From Paractinoplanes abujensis (GTDB taxonomy: Bacteria; Actinomycetota; Actinomycetes; Mycobacteriales; Micromonosporaceae), in NCBI RefSeq assembly GCF_014204895.1, contig NZ_JACHMF010000001.1, positions 5,022,001 to 5,086,000 on the forward strand: a stretch of 64,000 bases of DNA. The letters are read 5' to 3'. Position 1 is the first letter of the stretch, and each line of letters begins with the position of its first letter. Position numbers and translations under genes: made by a program. Shown one piece after another: positions 47,402 to 58,253 of this stretch. Below the pieces are notes generated by a model that saw only the letters and a list, made by a program, of their open reading frames with translations, made no database searches and was not told where the DNA came from.

Positions 47402-47407
47402 TACCGT
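47402..47407 (+). promoter_or_regulatory. -10 element (TACCGT), leaderless, for lipB
   Basis: TACCGT ends 7 nt before GTG 47415, favouring that codon over GTG 47406, which overlaps the hexamer itself. Confidence 0.5.
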
Positions 47408-47414
47408 GGACGGC

Positions 47415-48050
47415 GTGACAACTTCCACGCTCACTGTCCTGCGGCCCGGCCTGGTCGACTATCGCGAGGCCTGGGACGAGCAGCGGCGCCTGCACGACGC
47501 CGTGGCGGACGGCACCCAGCCCGACACCGTGCTGCTGCTGGAGCACCCCAGCGTGCTCACGGCGGGCAAGCGCACCGAGCCCGCCGACCTGCCGATCGAC
47601 GGCACCCCCGTCGTCGACGTCGACCGTGGCGGCAAGATCACCTGGCACGGCCCGGGCCAGCTGGTCGGCTACCCGATCCTCAAGCTGCCCGACCCGATCG
47701 ACGTGGTGGCCTACGTCCGCCGTACGGAACAGATGTTGATCGACGTGTGCGCCGAGTTCGGGGTCACCGCCGCCCGCTCCGACATCAAGGGCCGCAGCGG
47801 CGCCTGGGTCCTGGCCGACGACCGCGGCCCCGACCGCAAGATCGCCGCGATCGGCATCCGGGTCGCCCGCGGCGTCACCCAGCACGGCTTCGCCATCAAC
47901 GCCGACTGCGACCTGACCAATTTCGACCGGTTCACCCCGTGCGGCATCCGCGACGCGGGCGTCACGTCGCTCAGCGCCGAACTGGGCCGCGACGTGACCG
48001 TGGCCGAGGTGCTGCCGGTGGTCGAGAAGCACCTCACTACCCTGCTCTGA
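47415..48050 (+). CDS. lipB: octanoyl-[ACP]:protein octanoyltransferase
   Basis: Transfers octanoate from ACP to lipoyl domains, the first step of lipoate synthesis; 211 residues. Motifs: [34 protein letters not shown]142 in KIAAIGI and C176 in FTPCGI, which form the catalytic Cys/Lys pair. GTG 47415 is preferred to 47406 on promoter spacing. Its stop overlaps the start of a tiny membrane protein gene (TGATG). Confidence 0.95.
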
Positions 48051-49515: not shown

Positions 49516-50766
49516 TTACGGGGTCACGCGGTTGAGGTCGCGCGGGAAGGCGGTCACCTCGCGCACGTTCGGGGTCTCGGTCAGGCGGGCCACCAGGCGT
49601 TCCAGGCCGATCGCCCACCCGCCGTGCGGGGGCATGCCGTAGCGGAAGCCGTCCAGGTAACCGGCGTAGGGCGCCAAGGGTTCGCCGGCCCGGGTCAGAG
49701 CGTCCACATAGTCCTGGTGACTGTGCAGACGCTGGCCGCCGGTGACGATTTCGAGGCCGCGGAAGAGCAGGTCGAAGCCGTTGGAGTAGGTGGGGTCGGC
49801 CGGGTCGGGATGGGTGTAGAAGGGACGTTTGCGCATCGGGTAACCGGTGACGTAGACGAACTCGGACCCGTGCTCGCGAAGCGCCCATTCCCCCAGTGCG
49901 CGCTCGTGGGCCGGGGCCAGGTCGGGTTCGTCCGCGGGCGCCCCGGCAATGCGCAGCGCCTCGGTGAAGTGCACAGCCGGGATCTCCGACGGCACGATCG
50001 GCTGCTCGAACAGGCCGGCCGTCATGACGGCGAGCGTGCGGGTCAGCGCGGCCATCACGTCGCGGTGGTCGGCGATGAACCCCATCTCGGCGTCGAGCGA
50101 CGTGTACTGCGCGAGGTGACGCACGGTGTCGCTGGGTTCGGCGCGAAAGACCGGGCCCACCTCGAAGACCCGCTCGAAGACGCCGACCATGAGTTGCTTG
50201 TAGAACTGCGGCGACTGCGCGAGGTAGGCCGGGCGGCCGAAATAGTCGAGCTTGAACACGTTCGCGCCGGACTCGGTGGCCGAGGCGACGATCTTCGGCG
50301 TCTGGATCTCGACGAAGCGCTGCTCGGTCAGGGCCGCCCGGAAACCCGCCGTGACCTGAGCCGCGATCCGCAACGCGGAGCGGCGGGCGGGATGCCGCAG
50401 GGCCAGCGCCGCATGGTCGAGCTGGGTCGGCAGCGCGGCGCCGAGGGCCGGGCGGTGCAGCTCGAACGGCAGCGGCTCGCGCACGGCGGAAAGCACCCGG
50501 ATCTTGGGCTCGGTGAGCTCGACCCCGCCGGGGGCCTGCTCGTTCGGGCTCACGGTGGCGATTACCTCGACGACGCTTTCCTCGGTGAGCTGTTCGAGCT
50601 GCTCCCGGGTCTCCGGTGCGGTGACGACGACCTGCGAGAGGCCCTCGGCGTCGCGGACGATCAGGAAGGCCACCGACTTGAGCAGGCGGCGGCGATGAAT
50701 CCAGCCGGCGATCGTCACGGTCTCGTGCGGATGCGCCGTGAGCCGGGAAGAGAGGATGCGTTGCAC
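49516..50766 (-). CDS. aspS: archaeal-type aspartyl-tRNA synthetase (aspartate--tRNA(Asn) ligase type)
   Basis: Class II aminoacyl-tRNA synthetase of 416 residues. An N-terminal OB-fold anticodon domain (VTIAGWIHRRRLLKSVAFLIVRD) leads to a catalytic domain with motif 1 (VEIQTPKIVASATESGANVF), motif 2 (FEVGPVFRAEPSDTVRHLAQ) and motif 3 (GGWAIGLERLVARL). It lacks the GAD insertion of bacterial AspRS and so belongs to the archaeal/eukaryotic type, whose bacterial members are often non-discriminating. A standard AspRS probably exists elsewhere in the genome (inference). GTG start with GAGGAGG 9 nt upstream, sequestered in a hairpin at the end of a T-box leader. Confidence 0.93.
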   Translation of the reverse strand: MQRILSSRLTAHPHETVTIAGWIHRRRLLKSVAFLIVRDAEGLSQVVVTAPETREQLEQLTEESVVEVIATVSPNEQAPGGVELTEPKIRVLSAVREPLPFELHRPALGAALPTQLDHAALALRHPARRSALRIAAQVTAGFRAALTEQRFVEIQTPKIVASATESGANVFKLDYFGRPAYLAQSPQFYKQLMVGVFERVFEVGPVFRAEPSDTVRHLAQYTSLDAEMGFIADHRDVMAALTRTLAVMTAGLFEQPIVPSEIPAVHFTEALRIAGAPADEPDLAPAHERALGEWALREHGSEFVYVTGYPMRKRPFYTHPDPADPTYSNGFDLLFRGLEIVTGGQRLHSHQDYVDALTRAGEPLAPYAGYLDGFRYGMPPHGGWAIGLERLVARLTETPNVREVTAFPRDLNRVTP

Positions 50767-50975
50767 GGCTAGGACCTCCTCTGGTTTGCTGCAACGCGGC
50801 CCCAGGGAGGCGTGGGCGAGCGGGATCCTCGCGGTGCCACCACACCTTCGCGCCTTGGCAGGCGCCTCTTGTCGTGCTGCGGCTCGGGAGTGTCTTCCCG
50901 CCCCGGCGCCGGGCCACCTTCACAGCACGCGGTGGCTCTCTCGGCCGGCGGATCGAGGCGGTACTCGGTTCCTTC
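50767..50975 (-). promoter_or_regulatory. T-box leader (Asp specifier) of aspS
   Basis: Read on the minus strand: GAGTA (50966-50962) opens Stem I, the opposite strand gives GGCGG-GAA-GAC-A-CTC, and GAC (50894-50892) sits where the specifier codon belongs and matches tRNA-Asp. The conserved T-box core TGGCACCGCG is at 50839-50830; UGGC can pair with GCCA, the acceptor end of a tRNA with discriminator G as in tRNA-Asp. CCTCCCTGG (50810-50802) then pairs with CCAGAGGAGG (50784-50775), covering the ribosome binding site. This indicates translational control: uncharged tRNA-Asp would free the RBS. Confidence 0.82.
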
Positions 50976-51107
50976 AACGCCGTCCGCCGACGTTAACAAG
51001 GGGCAACGTCCATGCGAAAGGCATTTAACACGTTTCATGTGGCGGCGGTCACACGAGACGCCACGTGAGCCTCGTCGCCCCTGTCTAGGCAGGGGCCTAT
51101 TCAGGCG

Positions 51108-51120: not shown

Positions 51121-52044
51121 GTGACTATTGCTCCCGAGGGCCGCCGCATGCTGCGCATCGAAGCGCGCAACGCCGAAACTCCCATCGAGCGGAAGCCGCC
51201 GTGGATCAAGGTCAAAGCCAAGATGGGCCCGGAATACACGCAGATGCGTGGGCTCGTGCAGAAGGAAGGCCTGCACACGGTCTGCCAGGAGGCCGGGTGT
51301 CCCAACATCTACGAATGCTGGGAAGACCGCGAGGCCACCTTCCTCATCGGCGGCGACCAGTGCACCCGGCGTTGTGACTTCTGCCAGATCGACACGGGCA
51401 AGCCCGCCGAGTTCGACGCCGACGAGCCCCGCCGCGTGGGCGAGTCCGTCGCCACGATGGGCCTCAAATACGCGACCGTCACCGGTGTCGCCCGTGACGA
51501 CCTGCCCGACGGCGGCGCCTGGCTCTACGCCGAGACCGTCCGCCAGATCCACAAGCTCCAGCCCGACTGCGGCGTCGAGCTGCTGATCCCCGACTTCAAC
51601 GCCGAGCCCGACCAGCTGGCCGAGGTCTTCGGGGCCACGCCCGAGGTGCTGGCGCACAACGTCGAGACCGTGCCGCGCATCTTCAAGCGCATCCGCCCCG
51701 GCTTCCGTTACGAGCGCTCCCTCGACGTGATCACCCAGGCCCGCGCGGCCGACCTGGTCACGAAGAGCAACCTGATTCTGGGCATGGGCGAGGAGCGGGC
51801 CGAGATCTCCCAGGCCCTGCGCGACCTGCACAACGCGGGCTGCGAGCTGATCACCATCACGCAGTATCTGCGGCCGACCCCGCGGCACCACCCCGTCGAG
51901 CGCTGGGTCAAGCCGGAGGAATTCGTCGAGCTGCGCGAGGAGGCCGAGCAGATCGGCTTCGCCGGCGTGATGAGCGGGCCGCTGGTGCGCTCGTCCTACC
52001 GGGCCGGCCGCCTCTACAAGCAGGCCCTCGAAGCCCGCGGCTGA
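51121..52044 (+). CDS. lipA: lipoyl synthase
   Basis: Radical-SAM enzyme inserting two sulfurs into octanoyl-lipoyl domains; 307 residues. Both cluster motifs are complete: auxiliary cluster C55/C60/C66 ([12 protein letters not shown]) and radical-SAM cluster C81/C85/C88 (CTRRCDFC). The C-terminal RSSY motif that ligates the auxiliary cluster is present ([12 protein letters not shown]). Likely leaderless from TAACCT. A canonical terminator follows. lipB lies 3 kb away, with aspS and two small genes inserted between them. Confidence 0.96.
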
Positions 52045-54179: not shown

Positions 54180-55379
54180 GACCCCTCACCTGCGGCCGAA
54201 AGCGGTCACCAAGCTGGACGCAGCAGGCCAGTGCCTCCCAACCCCAACCCGACCGGCCGCAACACAAGACCGCGAGGCACGGAAGGGGTGTGGGCCGCGA
54301 CTGCAAAAGCGGAGGCGGGGGGCGCGGGGCGGGGGCGCCGAGCTCGGGCGCGGGGCTCGGACGCCGGACGCAGATCGGACTCGGTCGCGAGACGCTGGTG
54401 CAGATCGAGGGCACGCGCCGGGCGCAGGCACGGATCGCGGGCAAAGGTCGGGCGCGGGACGCGGGTGCGGTACGCGGGATGCGGGTGCGGGACGCGGGTG
54501 CGGGACGCGGGTGCGGGACGCGGGTGCGGGGTGCAGAGGCGAATGTAAGACGCATGCGGGGCGCGGAGCGAACGCAAAGACGCAGGGCACGGGTGTCGGG
54601 CACATGGCGCGGGCAAAGGGCCGGAGCTCGGGCCCTGGGGGAGGTCGCAGGCACCGGCACCGGCACCGACACAGGCGCGAGGCTCGGGCGTCAGGCGCAG
54701 GGCGCGAGTGTCGGGCGTAAGGCGGCACGAGGCGCGGATGCCGGACGCGGGGGCGGCGCGGGTCTGGGCGCGTGTGCAGGACGCAGGCGCAAGGGCGCGG
54801 GCGGGGCGCGAGTGCAGGGCATGCGCGCGGGGCATGGAGGTCGGATGCGGGCTGTCGGCGCGAGGTGCGGGCACGGGCCATCAGCGTGGGCGCCGGACAG
54901 TCGGCGCAGGGACCGGGCGCGGGCGCGAGGGCAACACGGCGCGGGCGCCGTTGAAGGGAGCTGGCTGGGGCGCGGGGCGCGGGAAGCGGATGTGGGACCG
55001 TCGGCGCGGGTGCGGCGCGGGCCATCGCCACAGGCACCGGACACTCGGCGCAGGCGTCAGGGCGCAGGCGTCAGGGCGCAGGCGTCAGGGCGCAGGCGTC
55101 AGGGCGCAGGCGTCAGGGCGCAGGCGTCAGGGCGCAGGCGTCAGGGCGCAGGCGTCAGGGCGCAGGCGTCAGGGCGCAGGCGTCAGGGCGCAGGCGTCAG
55201 GGCGCAGGCGTCAGGGCGCAGGCGTCAGGGCGCAGGCGTAAAGGGCGCAGGCGTAAAGGGCGCAGGCGTAAAGGGCGCAGGCGTAAAGGGCGTCGGCTCA
55301 GGCGTGAAGGCACGCGGCGCGGGAGCGGGTTCAACGAGCGCTCTCGGAACGGTCTGCCCGAAGTACGGGGGTGTGGACG
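54180..55379. other. 1.2-kb low-complexity, G-skewed region without a credible gene
   Basis: The stretch between the methyltransferase and the LuxR regulator is built of degenerate GGGCGCGGG-type words on the plus strand. It includes 13-nt units GGGACGCGGGTGC (about 54487-54532) and the 14/15-nt minisatellite at 55047. Long open frames occur on both strands only because stop codons are rare in such sequence. Their translations are almost pure Arg/Ala/Gly or Pro/Arg, overlap each other and run into the 3' end of the regulator gene, so none is called. Confidence 0.75.
55047..55288. repeat. minisatellite: 13 x 14-bp then 4 x 15-bp units
   Basis: Thirteen exact copies of GGCGCAGGCGTCAG (55047-55228) run directly into four exact copies of GGCGCAGGCGTAAAG (55229-55288). 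The two units differ at the 3' end (TCAG against TAAAG). The perfect identity within each block indicates very recent expansion. Confidence 0.95.
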
Positions 55380-58253
55380 TCAGGGCAGCTCGTCGAGCAG
55401 GCCCAGCCTGCGGGCTACGGCCGCTGCCTCGCCGCGGTTGGAGACCTGCAGTTTGGCGATGATGCGGGACACGTGGACGCTGGCCGTCTTGGGGGAGATG
55501 TAGAGGCCGGCGGCGATGCGGCTGTTGCTGTGGCCTTCGGCGACCAGGCGCAACACCTCGCGTTCGCGGACTGTCAGGAGTTCGTCGCGGTGGGCGGACG
55601 GGCGGATGCCGAGGCGGCGGCTGAGCGTGTCGGCCGCCTCGGTCAGCGGGACCGCGCCCAGGGCGGCGGCGATCGCGACCGACTCGGCGATCGCGCCGGC
55701 CGCGGCGGCCCGGTCGCCGGTGGCGGCCTGAGCCTCGGCCTGCCGCAGCAGGGCGGAGGCCAGCTCGTGGCGGTGCCCGTCGGCCCGCCACGCCTCAACG
55801 GTCTCGGCCCAGCGGCCGGCCCCGCCTTCGAGGTGGGCCCGCGTCTGGGCGGCGAAGGCGACCTGGGCCGGGTAGCGCTGCGGCAGACCCGCGGCGACCC
55901 CGGCCACCTGCGCCGCCAGCTCGGTGTCGCCGGCGTCGGCGGCGGCCTCGGCGGCGTGGGCCAGGATCGCCCAGGCGTAACGCGGCAGCACGGTCAGGTT
56001 GGGCTCGGCCAGGGCGGCCCGGGCGGTCTCAACCGCGGTCGTCGCCGGCGCCGAGCCGAGGGCGGCCGTCAAGCGCAGATCAACGGTGGCCAGGCGGCCC
56101 TCGGTCGAGAGGTAGGGCCGCCGCAGAAAGGTGGCGGCCCGGGTGACCAGGGTTTCCGCGTCTTCCCGGCCGCGGGCCAGGCGGATGCGGGCGCGCAGGC
56201 GCAGCCAGGGCAGGGCCATCGTCTCGGGCGGGTCGAGCCGGGCGGCCTCGGCCAGGCGGGCGTCGGCCTCGTCCCAGCGGCCCAGGGCGATCAGCGCCTC
56301 GGCGTGGTTGGCCAGCAGGTAGACGCCTGTGGTGCGGCCGACGCCGATGCGGTCGGCCTCGGGCAGGCCCTCCGCCGCGGCGTCGGCGGACTCCGCGTAG
56401 CGGCCGAGCTCGAACAGCGAGTCGGAGACGCTGATCAGCCCGCGGGTGAAGCTCGGGAAGTCGCCCGCGGCCCGGGCCCGGTGGGTGGCTTCGCGCATCA
56501 CGGGCAGGGCTTCGACGGCGGTCTGCCGGCCGGAGCAGGACGACCCGTACGCCACTTCGGCCGACACGATGGCGATGAGATCGCCGGATTCGTTGGCGCC
56601 GGCCATCGCGAGCTGGGCCACCTCGAAGCCGCGGGCGGCGTCGACGGAGCTGATCAGGTGGGCCAGCTCGGCCAGCAGCCGCACCTGCTCGGGGCTGTGC
56701 GGGGCGCTGGTGAGCAGCCGCAGCGCCTCGTCACACTCGGGCCTGGCGTCGGACTTGCCCGCGGTGCGCAGCAGTTTGGCCCGGCGCACGAGCAGGCGGC
56801 CGGCCCGCAGCGGCTCGGCCTCCGCGTCGAGGTCACCGAGGGCGGCCTTGGTCAGCATGAGCGCGCGCGAATACTCCCCCGAGTGGAGTGCGGCCAGCGC
56901 CGACTCCTCGAGCAGGTCGAGGTGGTCGAGGCCGAGCAGGCTCCGGGCGTCGGGCACCTCTTCCCACAGCTGGAGCACCCGGTCGAGCAGGCGCACCTGT
57001 TCCCCGTACGCGAAGCGGCACTTGGCCTCGTCGGCGGCGATCTTGGCGGTGACCAGGGCGCGCGGGCGGTCGTGGGCGGCGTGCCAGTGGTGGGCGATCT
57101 CGGCCGGGGCCCGGCCCGCCGCGACGAGGTGGGGCTCGGCCTCGACGGCCTGGGCGTAGCGCGCGTGGAGCCGGGCGTGCTCACCGGGCAGCAGGTCGTC
57201 GTGCACGGCCTCGCGCACGAGGGCGTGGCGGAACTCGTAATCCCCGTCGGCGTCGACGACCACGACGAGCTGGGCGGCGACGACCGCGCGGAGCGCCGAC
57301 TCGAGATCGGCCTCGGGCATGCCGGCCACGCGGGCCAGCAGCTCGTGGCCGAACCGGGTGCCACCGACCGCGGCCACCCGCAGCACGCGCTGGGCCGGCT
57401 CGGGCAGCTGGTCGACGCGGGCCAGCAGCAGGTCGCGCAGGGTGGCCGGGAAGTCGCAGGACGGGTCGGCGGCGGCCGCGAACTGCTCGATGAAGAACGG
57501 GTTGCCCTGGGCGCGCTCGTTGACGGCGTCGACCGTGCGCGGGTCGGGCTCGGCGCCGACCAGGTGGGTGAGCAGCTCGGAGGTGCCTTCGCGGTCGAGC
57601 CGGTCGAGCTCGAGGCGCAACACCCCCCGTACGCGATCGAGCTCGCCCAGGAAGGGCCGGAGCGGATGGCCGCGGTGCAGCTCGTCGGTGCGATAGGTGG
57701 TGATCAGCAGCAGCTGGGGCAGGCGGGCCGCGCGCACCAGGAAGGCGATGAGGTCACGGGTGGAGCGGTCGGCCCAGTGCAGATCCTCGATGACCAGCAC
57801 GAGCGGCGCGCGGCCGAGCACGGCGGCGACCGCGTTGAAGAGCAGGCCACGGCGGGCCTCGCCCTCGGGCGGCGGGCCCAGCTCGGGCAGCAGACGGGCC
57901 AGCTCGCGCTCGTGGCCGTCGAGCACCTCGGGGCCTTCGGCCCGCAGCAGGTCACGCAGGGCGCCGGCGAACGGGGCGAACGGCAGCCCCTCCTCCCCCA
58001 GCTCGAGGCACTGACCGGCCAGGACCCGGACGGGATCGGTGGTCAGGCTTTGGCAGAACTCCTCGACCAGACGGGTCTTGCCCACCCCCGCCTCGCCGCC
58101 GACCAGCACGGTCGACGGCTCGGCGTGGCGGGCCCGCTTGAGTGCGTCGCGCAGCACGGCCAGGTCGGCCTCGCGACCGACGAGCACCTCGCTGTGCGCA
58201 TGCCCCGTCATGAGGTCGAGCATGGCACGCGGGTACGACAAGAAAGCACTCAC
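55380..58253 (-). CDS. LuxR-family (LAL) transcriptional regulator with AAA ATPase domain
   Basis: Large ATP-binding LuxR regulator of 957 residues. Walker A is GGEAGVGKT (about 52-60), the Walker B region reads LVLVIEDLHWADRSTRDL, a long TPR-like helical middle follows, and the C-terminal 65 residues are a GerE/LuxR helix-turn-helix (LTVREREVLRLVAEGHSN, then SVHVSRIIAKL). Such proteins are often activators of catabolic or secondary-metabolite genes; no target is evident here. GTG 58253 overlaps the stop of the small upstream gene (GTGA), indicating coupling; ATG 58223 is an alternative. Confidence 0.9.
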   Translation of the reverse strand: MSAFLSYPRAMLDLMTGHAHSEVLVGREADLAVLRDALKRARHAEPSTVLVGGEAGVGKTRLVEEFCQSLTTDPVRVLAGQCLELGEEGLPFAPFAGALRDLLRAEGPEVLDGHERELARLLPELGPPPEGEARRGLLFNAVAAVLGRAPLVLVIEDLHWADRSTRDLIAFLVRAARLPQLLLITTYRTDELHRGHPLRPFLGELDRVRGVLRLELDRLDREGTSELLTHLVGAEPDPRTVDAVNERAQGNPFFIEQFAAAADPSCDFPATLRDLLLARVDQLPEPAQRVLRVAAVGGTRFGHELLARVAGMPEADLESALRAVVAAQLVVVVDADGDYEFRHALVREAVHDDLLPGEHARLHARYAQAVEAEPHLVAAGRAPAEIAHHWHAAHDRPRALVTAKIAADEAKCRFAYGEQVRLLDRVLQLWEEVPDARSLLGLDHLDLLEESALAALHSGEYSRALMLTKAALGDLDAEAEPLRAGRLLVRRAKLLRTAGKSDARPECDEALRLLTSAPHSPEQVRLLAELAHLISSVDAARGFEVAQLAMAGANESGDLIAIVSAEVAYGSSCSGRQTAVEALPVMREATHRARAAGDFPSFTRGLISVSDSLFELGRYAESADAAAEGLPEADRIGVGRTTGVYLLANHAEALIALGRWDEADARLAEAARLDPPETMALPWLRLRARIRLARGREDAETLVTRAATFLRRPYLSTEGRLATVDLRLTAALGSAPATTAVETARAALAEPNLTVLPRYAWAILAHAAEAAADAGDTELAAQVAGVAAGLPQRYPAQVAFAAQTRAHLEGGAGRWAETVEAWRADGHRHELASALLRQAEAQAATGDRAAAAGAIAESVAIAAALGAVPLTEAADTLSRRLGIRPSAHRDELLTVREREVLRLVAEGHSNSRIAAGLYISPKTASVHVSRIIAKLQVSNRGEAAAVARRLGLLDELP

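Follow-up and report, generated by a model that had tools for sequence, protein, structure and literature searches.

The locus analysed here raises the question of what controls aspS2, a gene for an aspartyl-tRNA synthetase (AspRS) that lies beside lipB and lipA, and to which signal this control would respond. From sequence and comparison, we consider it very probable that the aspS2 leader is a tRNA-Asp-sensing T-box by which translation of a second AspRS, of archaeal type and probably non-discriminating, is controlled. All coordinates given are positions in the window, i.e. the whole stretch of 64,000 nt that was analysed, and the leader and aspS2 are read on its minus strand. The genes concerned are:

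49516-50766, minus strand: aspS2, archaeal-type AspRS of 416 aa with a GTG start (family models, structure match)
51154-52044, plus strand: lipA, divergent neighbour, start codon provisional
47406-48050, plus strand: lipB, neighbour of aspS2

The product of aspS2 is a complete archaeal-type AspRS. In the family-model search it reaches 513 bits with NF003483, "aspartate--tRNA(Asn) ligase" (cut-off 353), and 346 bits with TIGR00458, slightly below the cut-off of 368. The sequence-only reading that preceded this analysis had called it a second AspRS, and indeed another AspRS-like frame, of 604 aa, is present at 9.15 Mb of the genome with 33% identity over residues 14-287; because of its length and where the match falls, we take it for an AspRS of the bacterial type. 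The nearest solved structure of AspRS2 is the AspRS2 of T. thermophilus (1n9w, 3kfu; E 3.2e-97 over residues 3-416), which is named as non-discriminating. Both enzymes share the His in GWIH and the Pro in QAPGG, where 1b8a and 3nel have Trp and Lys, and we presume these sites to be functionally meaningful. An asparaginyl-tRNA synthetase (AsnRS) above the cut-off was found in none of 59 genomes, a set that includes the window's genome and covers both genomes that have aspS2 and genomes that lack it, while the same search found one in 7 of 14 control genomes; T. thermophilus, in contrast, has an AsnRS as well, according to an excerpt of PMC4206432. GatB was detected with 467 bits, and tRNA-Asn has a U1-A72 pair. 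As no AsnRS scores above the cut-off and the nearest structure is non-discriminating, AspRS2 probably charges both tRNA-Asp and tRNA-Asn. The search for asnS and gatCAB that had been proposed along with an "Asn-tRNA-charging paralogue" thus leaves that idea plausible, given the missing AsnRS matches, GatB and the structure match. In L195, a locus of genome G689 from the window's genus without a strict AspRS2 match, a 441-aa frame reaches 227 bits for AsnRS, which is below the cut-off; it is perhaps a diverged class IIb synthetase.

The T-box leader sits between the divergent lipA (plus strand) and aspS2 (minus strand), and the following elements were located in it:

50990-50995, minus strand: TAACGT, likely -10 promoter element of the leader, as predicted from its sequence
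50881-50981, minus strand: Stem I with its base at 50981-50979, the GAGTA motif at 50966-50962 and the specifier loop (Rfam match; covariation in helices 1-5)
50892-50894, minus strand: specifier codon GAC (Asp), followed by A50891
50850-50865, minus strand: Stem III (helix 6, two-sided changes in 4 of 5 pairs)
50808-50847, minus strand: antisequestrator, with helix A1 (50847-50840 with 50815-50808) and helix A2 (50832-50828 with 50820-50816)
50833-50839, minus strand: T-box bulge UGGCACC, of which UGGC complements the tRNA-Asp acceptor end GCCA; the T-box core TGGCACCGCG, in which the bulge reads TGGCACC (50839-50833), extends to 50830
50775-50810, minus strand: sequestrator hairpin masking the Shine-Dalgarno (SD) sequence, with the strands CCUCCCUGG and CCAGAGGAGG; 9 bp are formed between CCTCCCTGG (50810-50802) and CCAGAGGAGG (50784-50775), and A50780 is bulged
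50775-50781, minus strand: SD sequence GAGGAGG of aspS2

The elements on which the sequence-only reading was built, namely GAGTA, GAC followed by A, the T-box core and a hairpin with a bulged A on GAGGAGG, could thus all be found. Its span of 50764-50975 captured the leader and was too short at the 5' end, since the base of Stem I, the Rfam match from 50986 and TAACGT at 50995-50990 lie beyond it. Of 151 long-type leaders, 147 carry a TANNNT-type hexamer within the 34 nt that surround the beginning of Stem I, a count for which a second, longer pattern was also allowed, and 5 carry one in a control stretch 70 nt farther upstream. Between this promoter region and lipA, a GC-rich hairpin is found at 51077-51096; a THF-II-like match at this position has an E-value of 1.6, which is sub-threshold, and was treated as chance. 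Elsewhere in the window, at about 54900-55400, there is a tandem repeat that shows up in the ORF list as repeats of GAGVRAQASGRRRQ in one reading frame.

As had been suggested as a check, the leader was compared with the Rfam T-box covariance model. RF00230 matches 50809-50986 on the minus strand over model positions 1-219 with 47 bits, which is significant at E 2.4e-9 for the 451-base stretch searched. Because 47 bits falls under the gathering score of 93 bits, no T-box is listed by the default Rfam scan of the window. For a comparison of relatives, an alignment was made of 16 of 33 representatives, those without an extra Stem II, leaving out the misanchored L100. Pairs were counted in a structure written by hand from the window sequence, so that the resulting 96.3% of 656 cells paired is biased upward, the structure being taken from one of the aligned sequences; two-sided changes occur in 17 of 41 pairs. 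In 500 shuffles none of the five measures was reached, and controls with slid partners gave 34-50% paired cells and 0-4 pairs with two-sided changes. Related sequences can exceed shuffles, and the two-sided changes in several helices therefore carry more weight. Helix A1 varies in step in several ways over 184 entries, as GGTGTGG/CCACACC, GGTGCGG/CCGCACC, AGTGCGG/CCGCACT, GATGTGG/CCACATC and GGCGCGG/CCGCGCC. Of 187 entries, 184 have the T-box core ahead of aspS2; the entries are not all distinct organisms, some named and unnamed records being identical. The core is also present in 53 of 54 upstream regions from other genera. No core was found within 260 nt of the assumed start in L047, L110 and L162; in L110, where a core is visible farther upstream, the protein match starts within the gene. 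Covariation and conservation together rule out a chance resemblance or a decayed relic.

The conservation that had been named as a further check, that of the GAC and TGGCACC elements upstream of aspS2 orthologues, holds for GAC and for TGG[C/T]ACC. A first script assigned 151 of the 184 entries to the long type with a pattern that itself contains GAC, and this count alone is no proof of conservation. An open-codon pattern, made up of GAA, an unspecified codon and the flank, fits 155 of the 184 entries and yields GAC in all 155: the 139 single matches are all GAC, the 16 entries with multiple matches have GAC among them, and none lacks it. A second open pattern, anchored in the 3' flank, proved too loose, with several matches in 125 entries; its matches lack GAC in L021 and L116 alone, and in both the first open pattern finds GAC. 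Of the 29 entries unmatched by the first open pattern, all but L064 were read by eye, giving 24 ultrashort leaders with TGAC, a short motif that is weak evidence alone (some of the 24 are rather intermediate forms), and four long leaders with GAC (L018, L142, L146, L177). An Asn specifier (AAC) is ruled out by the open-codon reading, in which GAC occurs throughout. In the 151 script-placed entries, GAC is followed by C (84), A (66) or G (1); a purine is usual after the specifier codon of a T-box.

The tRNA side fits this specifier. The main tRNA-Asp gene (L211) has the anticodon GTC and an unpaired discriminator G73, and because this G precedes the point of CCA addition, the acceptor end is GCCA and fits UGGC; a second tRNA-Asp gene is predicted in the genome (L235), and the acceptor match refers to L211. 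Many relatives carry UGGU in the bulge, which requires a G-U pair with G73. Two tRNA-Ile genes that were read have A73, and the bulges of both ileS T-boxes of this genome are UGGU. The bulge alone cannot separate Asp from Asn, since tRNA-Asn has G73 too, but the specifier does separate them. The claim that specifier, acceptor match, downstream gene and the hairpin over the ribosome-binding site agree on Asp was therefore borne out in every part: GAC, UGGC/GCCA, the AspRS and the hairpin. Among the tRNA genes of the genome, 14 are predicted within about 1.4 kb in L229 (G000:C1:4528050-4529520), including two Leu tRNAs of 74 nt.

What sequence and comparison show comprises the T-box fold with its specifier, the hairpin, the matching tRNA, which gene lies downstream and that the leader is conserved; tRNA binding, the switch with its direction and the physiological trigger are predicted from these. 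Uncharged tRNA-Asp would pair at two places, through its anticodon GUC with the specifier GAC and through its acceptor end GCCA with the bulge UGGC. This would stabilise the antisequestrator, the 3' strand of which has bases in common with the anti-SD strand. With the antisequestrator held, the ribosome-binding site would open and AspRS2 would be made. Charged tRNA-Asp could not enter the bulge, the sequestrator would form, and translation of aspS2 would stay low, so that the spare AspRS would be made when Asp-tRNA(Asp) is scarce. Control of translation is the best reading, because the SD sequence lies inside a 9-bp hairpin after which there is no U-run.

The predicted folds were examined with RNAfold. 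The minimum-energy fold of the window's leader includes the sequestrator, with 10 pairs owing to an extra G-U; in this fold, calculated without tRNA, the 5' strand of A1 pairs with the T-box bulge and the antisequestrator is not formed. The sequestrator and the antisequestrator overlap by about 3-4 nt (50811-50808), their exclusion thus looks partial on paper, and the switch in the window may be softer given this overlap. In L182 and L183 the anti-SD strand is the 3' strand of helix A1 itself (ACACCUCC/GGAGGUGU), and this larger overlap would make a clean switch. When the 3' strand of the antisequestrator is removed, the start codon ends up in another hairpin, which in this shortened segment would also hinder initiation. 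Over 140 distinct rows, some with a mis-set start, the anti-SD/SD duplex has a mean of -14.8 kcal/mol versus -10.4 for shuffled SD sequences, and in 65 of the 140 it is equalled by at most 5 of 100 shuffles. The start is mis-set, the protein match beginning inside the gene, in L100-L110, L142-L144, L147, L164-L167, L174 and L191, which affects the counts for this duplex and for the linker pairing below, and partly those for codons and promoter. A subset of Micromonospora leaders (e.g. L042, L054, L077) has a hairpin of about 30 nt inserted between anti-SD and SD, which places the core at about -105 instead of -74. Upstream of aspS2 in L083, L136 and L139, long GC-rich stretches lie just upstream of the T-box core, apparently setting Stem I at a greater distance from the antisequestrator.

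The linker between the two sequestrator strands holds one further element, for which the evidence is suggestive:

50790-50797, minus strand: GCGUUGCA, complementary to UGCAACGC (50765-50758), candidate second lock

The complementarity is exact and runs from the second base of the start codon through codon 3. The GCGUUGC in this element could do no more than fold into a local hairpin, a spacer that gives the SD sequestrator its geometry, a reading that we take seriously while giving it somewhat less than an even chance. Many Micromonospora leaders have AUCGC-GUU-GCGAU, L170-L172 have AUCGCG-UUG-CGCGAU, and RNAfold draws a small hairpin at this place within the sequestrator loop; Actinoplanes leaders, however, keep the 7-mer while its flanks vary, and only 3 bp and a mismatch can be drawn there. 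It is possible, if rather doubtful, that the leader has two locks, with the SD sequence hidden and, in addition, GCGUUGC(A) paired with the start codon and codons 2-3. As these two pairings cross, an H-type pseudoknot would be possible, as would an alternation between them. RNAfold forms the GCGUUGCA/UGCAACGC helix in the window once the 3' strand of the antisequestrator is removed, and among the 105 leaders chosen for the tree of this element, 59 have both 7-mers, 29 have neither and 17 have one only. Eight leaders keep GCAACGC without the 7-mer (L152, L168, L183, L187, L189, L190, L042, L066), nine have the 7-mer without GCAACGC, and the joint change seen in 3.7 of 6 independent tree pairs (opposite change 0.1, median p 0.125) is not significant. 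In L163 both sides are altered, to CGCGCCA/UGGCGCG, with 7 bp kept. Over 108 ORFs, CAA encodes Gln at codon 2 in 93 of 93 cases, versus 48 of 1057 Gln codons when counting starts at codon 11, and Arg at codon 3 is CGC in 89 of 99 versus 1238 of 3840; early codons often favour low structure anyway, which has to be counted against this bias. In 81 of 128 distinct cases the start is a better pairing partner for the linker than every control window downstream, but in the other 47 such a window pairs equally well or better, and in Micromonospora GCGUUGC can form the local hairpin instead.

At E 1e-90, aspS2 was found in 151 of the 200 genomes sampled from the window's family, at E 1e-60 in 25 of 150 genomes of the order, and at E 1e-70 in 3 of 396 genomes of the phylum, a search that scored four first-look candidates per genome; two of these three belong to the window's family and one is 42% identical. 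Named relatives, the best 80 of 195, are Actinoplanes, Paractinoplanes, Micromonospora and kin, and in these best 80, with flanks reaching 3 kb, lipA is divergent in 80 of 80 loci and lipB lies downstream in 71 of 80. The view of aspS2 as inserted between lipB and lipA thus survives as far as the lip setting is concerned and fails as a local insertion; the 151 of 200 family genomes and the shared lip locus rule out an insertion private to the window's strain. They also bear on an improbable alternative, close to the resistant or inhibitor-induced AspRS that the sequence-only reading had suggested, in which AspRS2 would resist an inhibitor, would confer immunity to a natural product that targets AspRS, and would be induced when AspRS1 is poisoned. 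Its support is one of logic only, in that a sensor of uncharged tRNA-Asp would respond to the poisoning of AspRS1, and in that T-boxes also precede the two IleRS-like genes of the genome; but a gene kept in that share of the family at one stable lip locus is unlike a cluster-bound immunity gene, and a cluster-bound resistance gene is not favoured.

Within this distribution Stem I occurs in two forms. On a tree of AspRS2 with 86 chosen rows, the labels long and ultrashort, which were given partly by eye, with all rows off the by-eye ultrashort list counted as long and L162 and L191 unlabelled, need at least 6 changes, of which 3 are forced by well-supported branches. The ultrashort leaders L121 and L133 fall in the window's own genus by the grouping used in the genome search, and their sequences read like the long form minus its distal arm. 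We propose only tentatively the wider picture of a double-lock T-box in many Micromonosporaceae, in which the coding sequence would be part of the riboswitch and Stem I would have changed repeatedly between long and ultrashort while the tRNA stayed constant.

The actinobacterial ileS T-boxes are among the closest known systems. In the genomes then surveyed, and as far as the excerpt of PMC1262725 (Seliverstov et al. 2005) goes, actinobacterial T-boxes were found only at ileS; they share with the aspS2 leader the phylum, Stem I, the T-box bulge and an SD-sequestering hairpin instead of a terminator. Translational ileS T-boxes were treated by Sherwood et al. 2015, as cited in the portion seen of PMC7583486, which also gives truncated Stem I forms among them. 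The aspS2 leader differs in its specifier GAC, its bulge UGGC or UGGU and its gene, a second AspRS. That it acts by transcription termination as in Firmicutes, the mode of most annotated T-boxes (PMC7583486, in part), is very improbable and not favoured, as a U-run is absent from the sequence after the hairpin, the 3' strand of the hairpin is the SD sequence itself, and the actinobacterial ileS T-boxes are likewise SD-sequestering (excerpt of PMC1262725). In the window's genome, a whole-genome search with the T-box model gave three places, none above the gathering score: the aspS2 leader and two others (L001, 1501-1717; L003, 1501-1656), both upstream of IleRS-like frames that we take for IleRS from their translations; one of them has a long Stem I, the other an apparently ultrashort one.

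The T-box control of tRNA-dependent Asn formation in C. acetobutylicum (Saad et al. 2012, 2013; excerpt of PMC4206432) shares the T-box, an extra AspRS and the GatCAB route. It belongs to another phylum, and the title of the 2013 paper names a two-codon T-box, whereas the aspS2 leader has the single specifier Asp. In the same excerpt, extra AspRSs are noted in Actinomycetales and "T-box" occurs only in the titles of two C. acetobutylicum references. Counts from the part seen of PMC2494555 are 32 T-boxes in 12 of 19 actinobacterial genomes, with eighteen in Symbiobacterium alone. Since TBDB scanned actinobacterial reference genomes with its class II (translational) model, copies of the aspS2 leader may already be in it as predictions, for which sequestrator stems are not predicted (PMC7778990, in part). 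Among the matches listed from the open-licence literature, none could be recognised by its title or the start of its abstract as dealing with an Asp T-box in actinomycetes. The Asp-specific translational T-box is a fresh example of an established type of switch, not a new kind, which we regard as solid.

For the biology of the family, this T-box would add aspartate to isoleucine as an amino acid served by translational T-boxes in actinomycetes, and a spare AspRS that is common in the window's family gains a predicted trigger, empty tRNA-Asp. If the pairing at the start codon is true, the first codons of aspS2 would belong to the regulator. With one gene and one cognate tRNA, the long and ultrashort forms of Stem I within the family and within the window's genus provide a natural series on the role of the distal part of Stem I.
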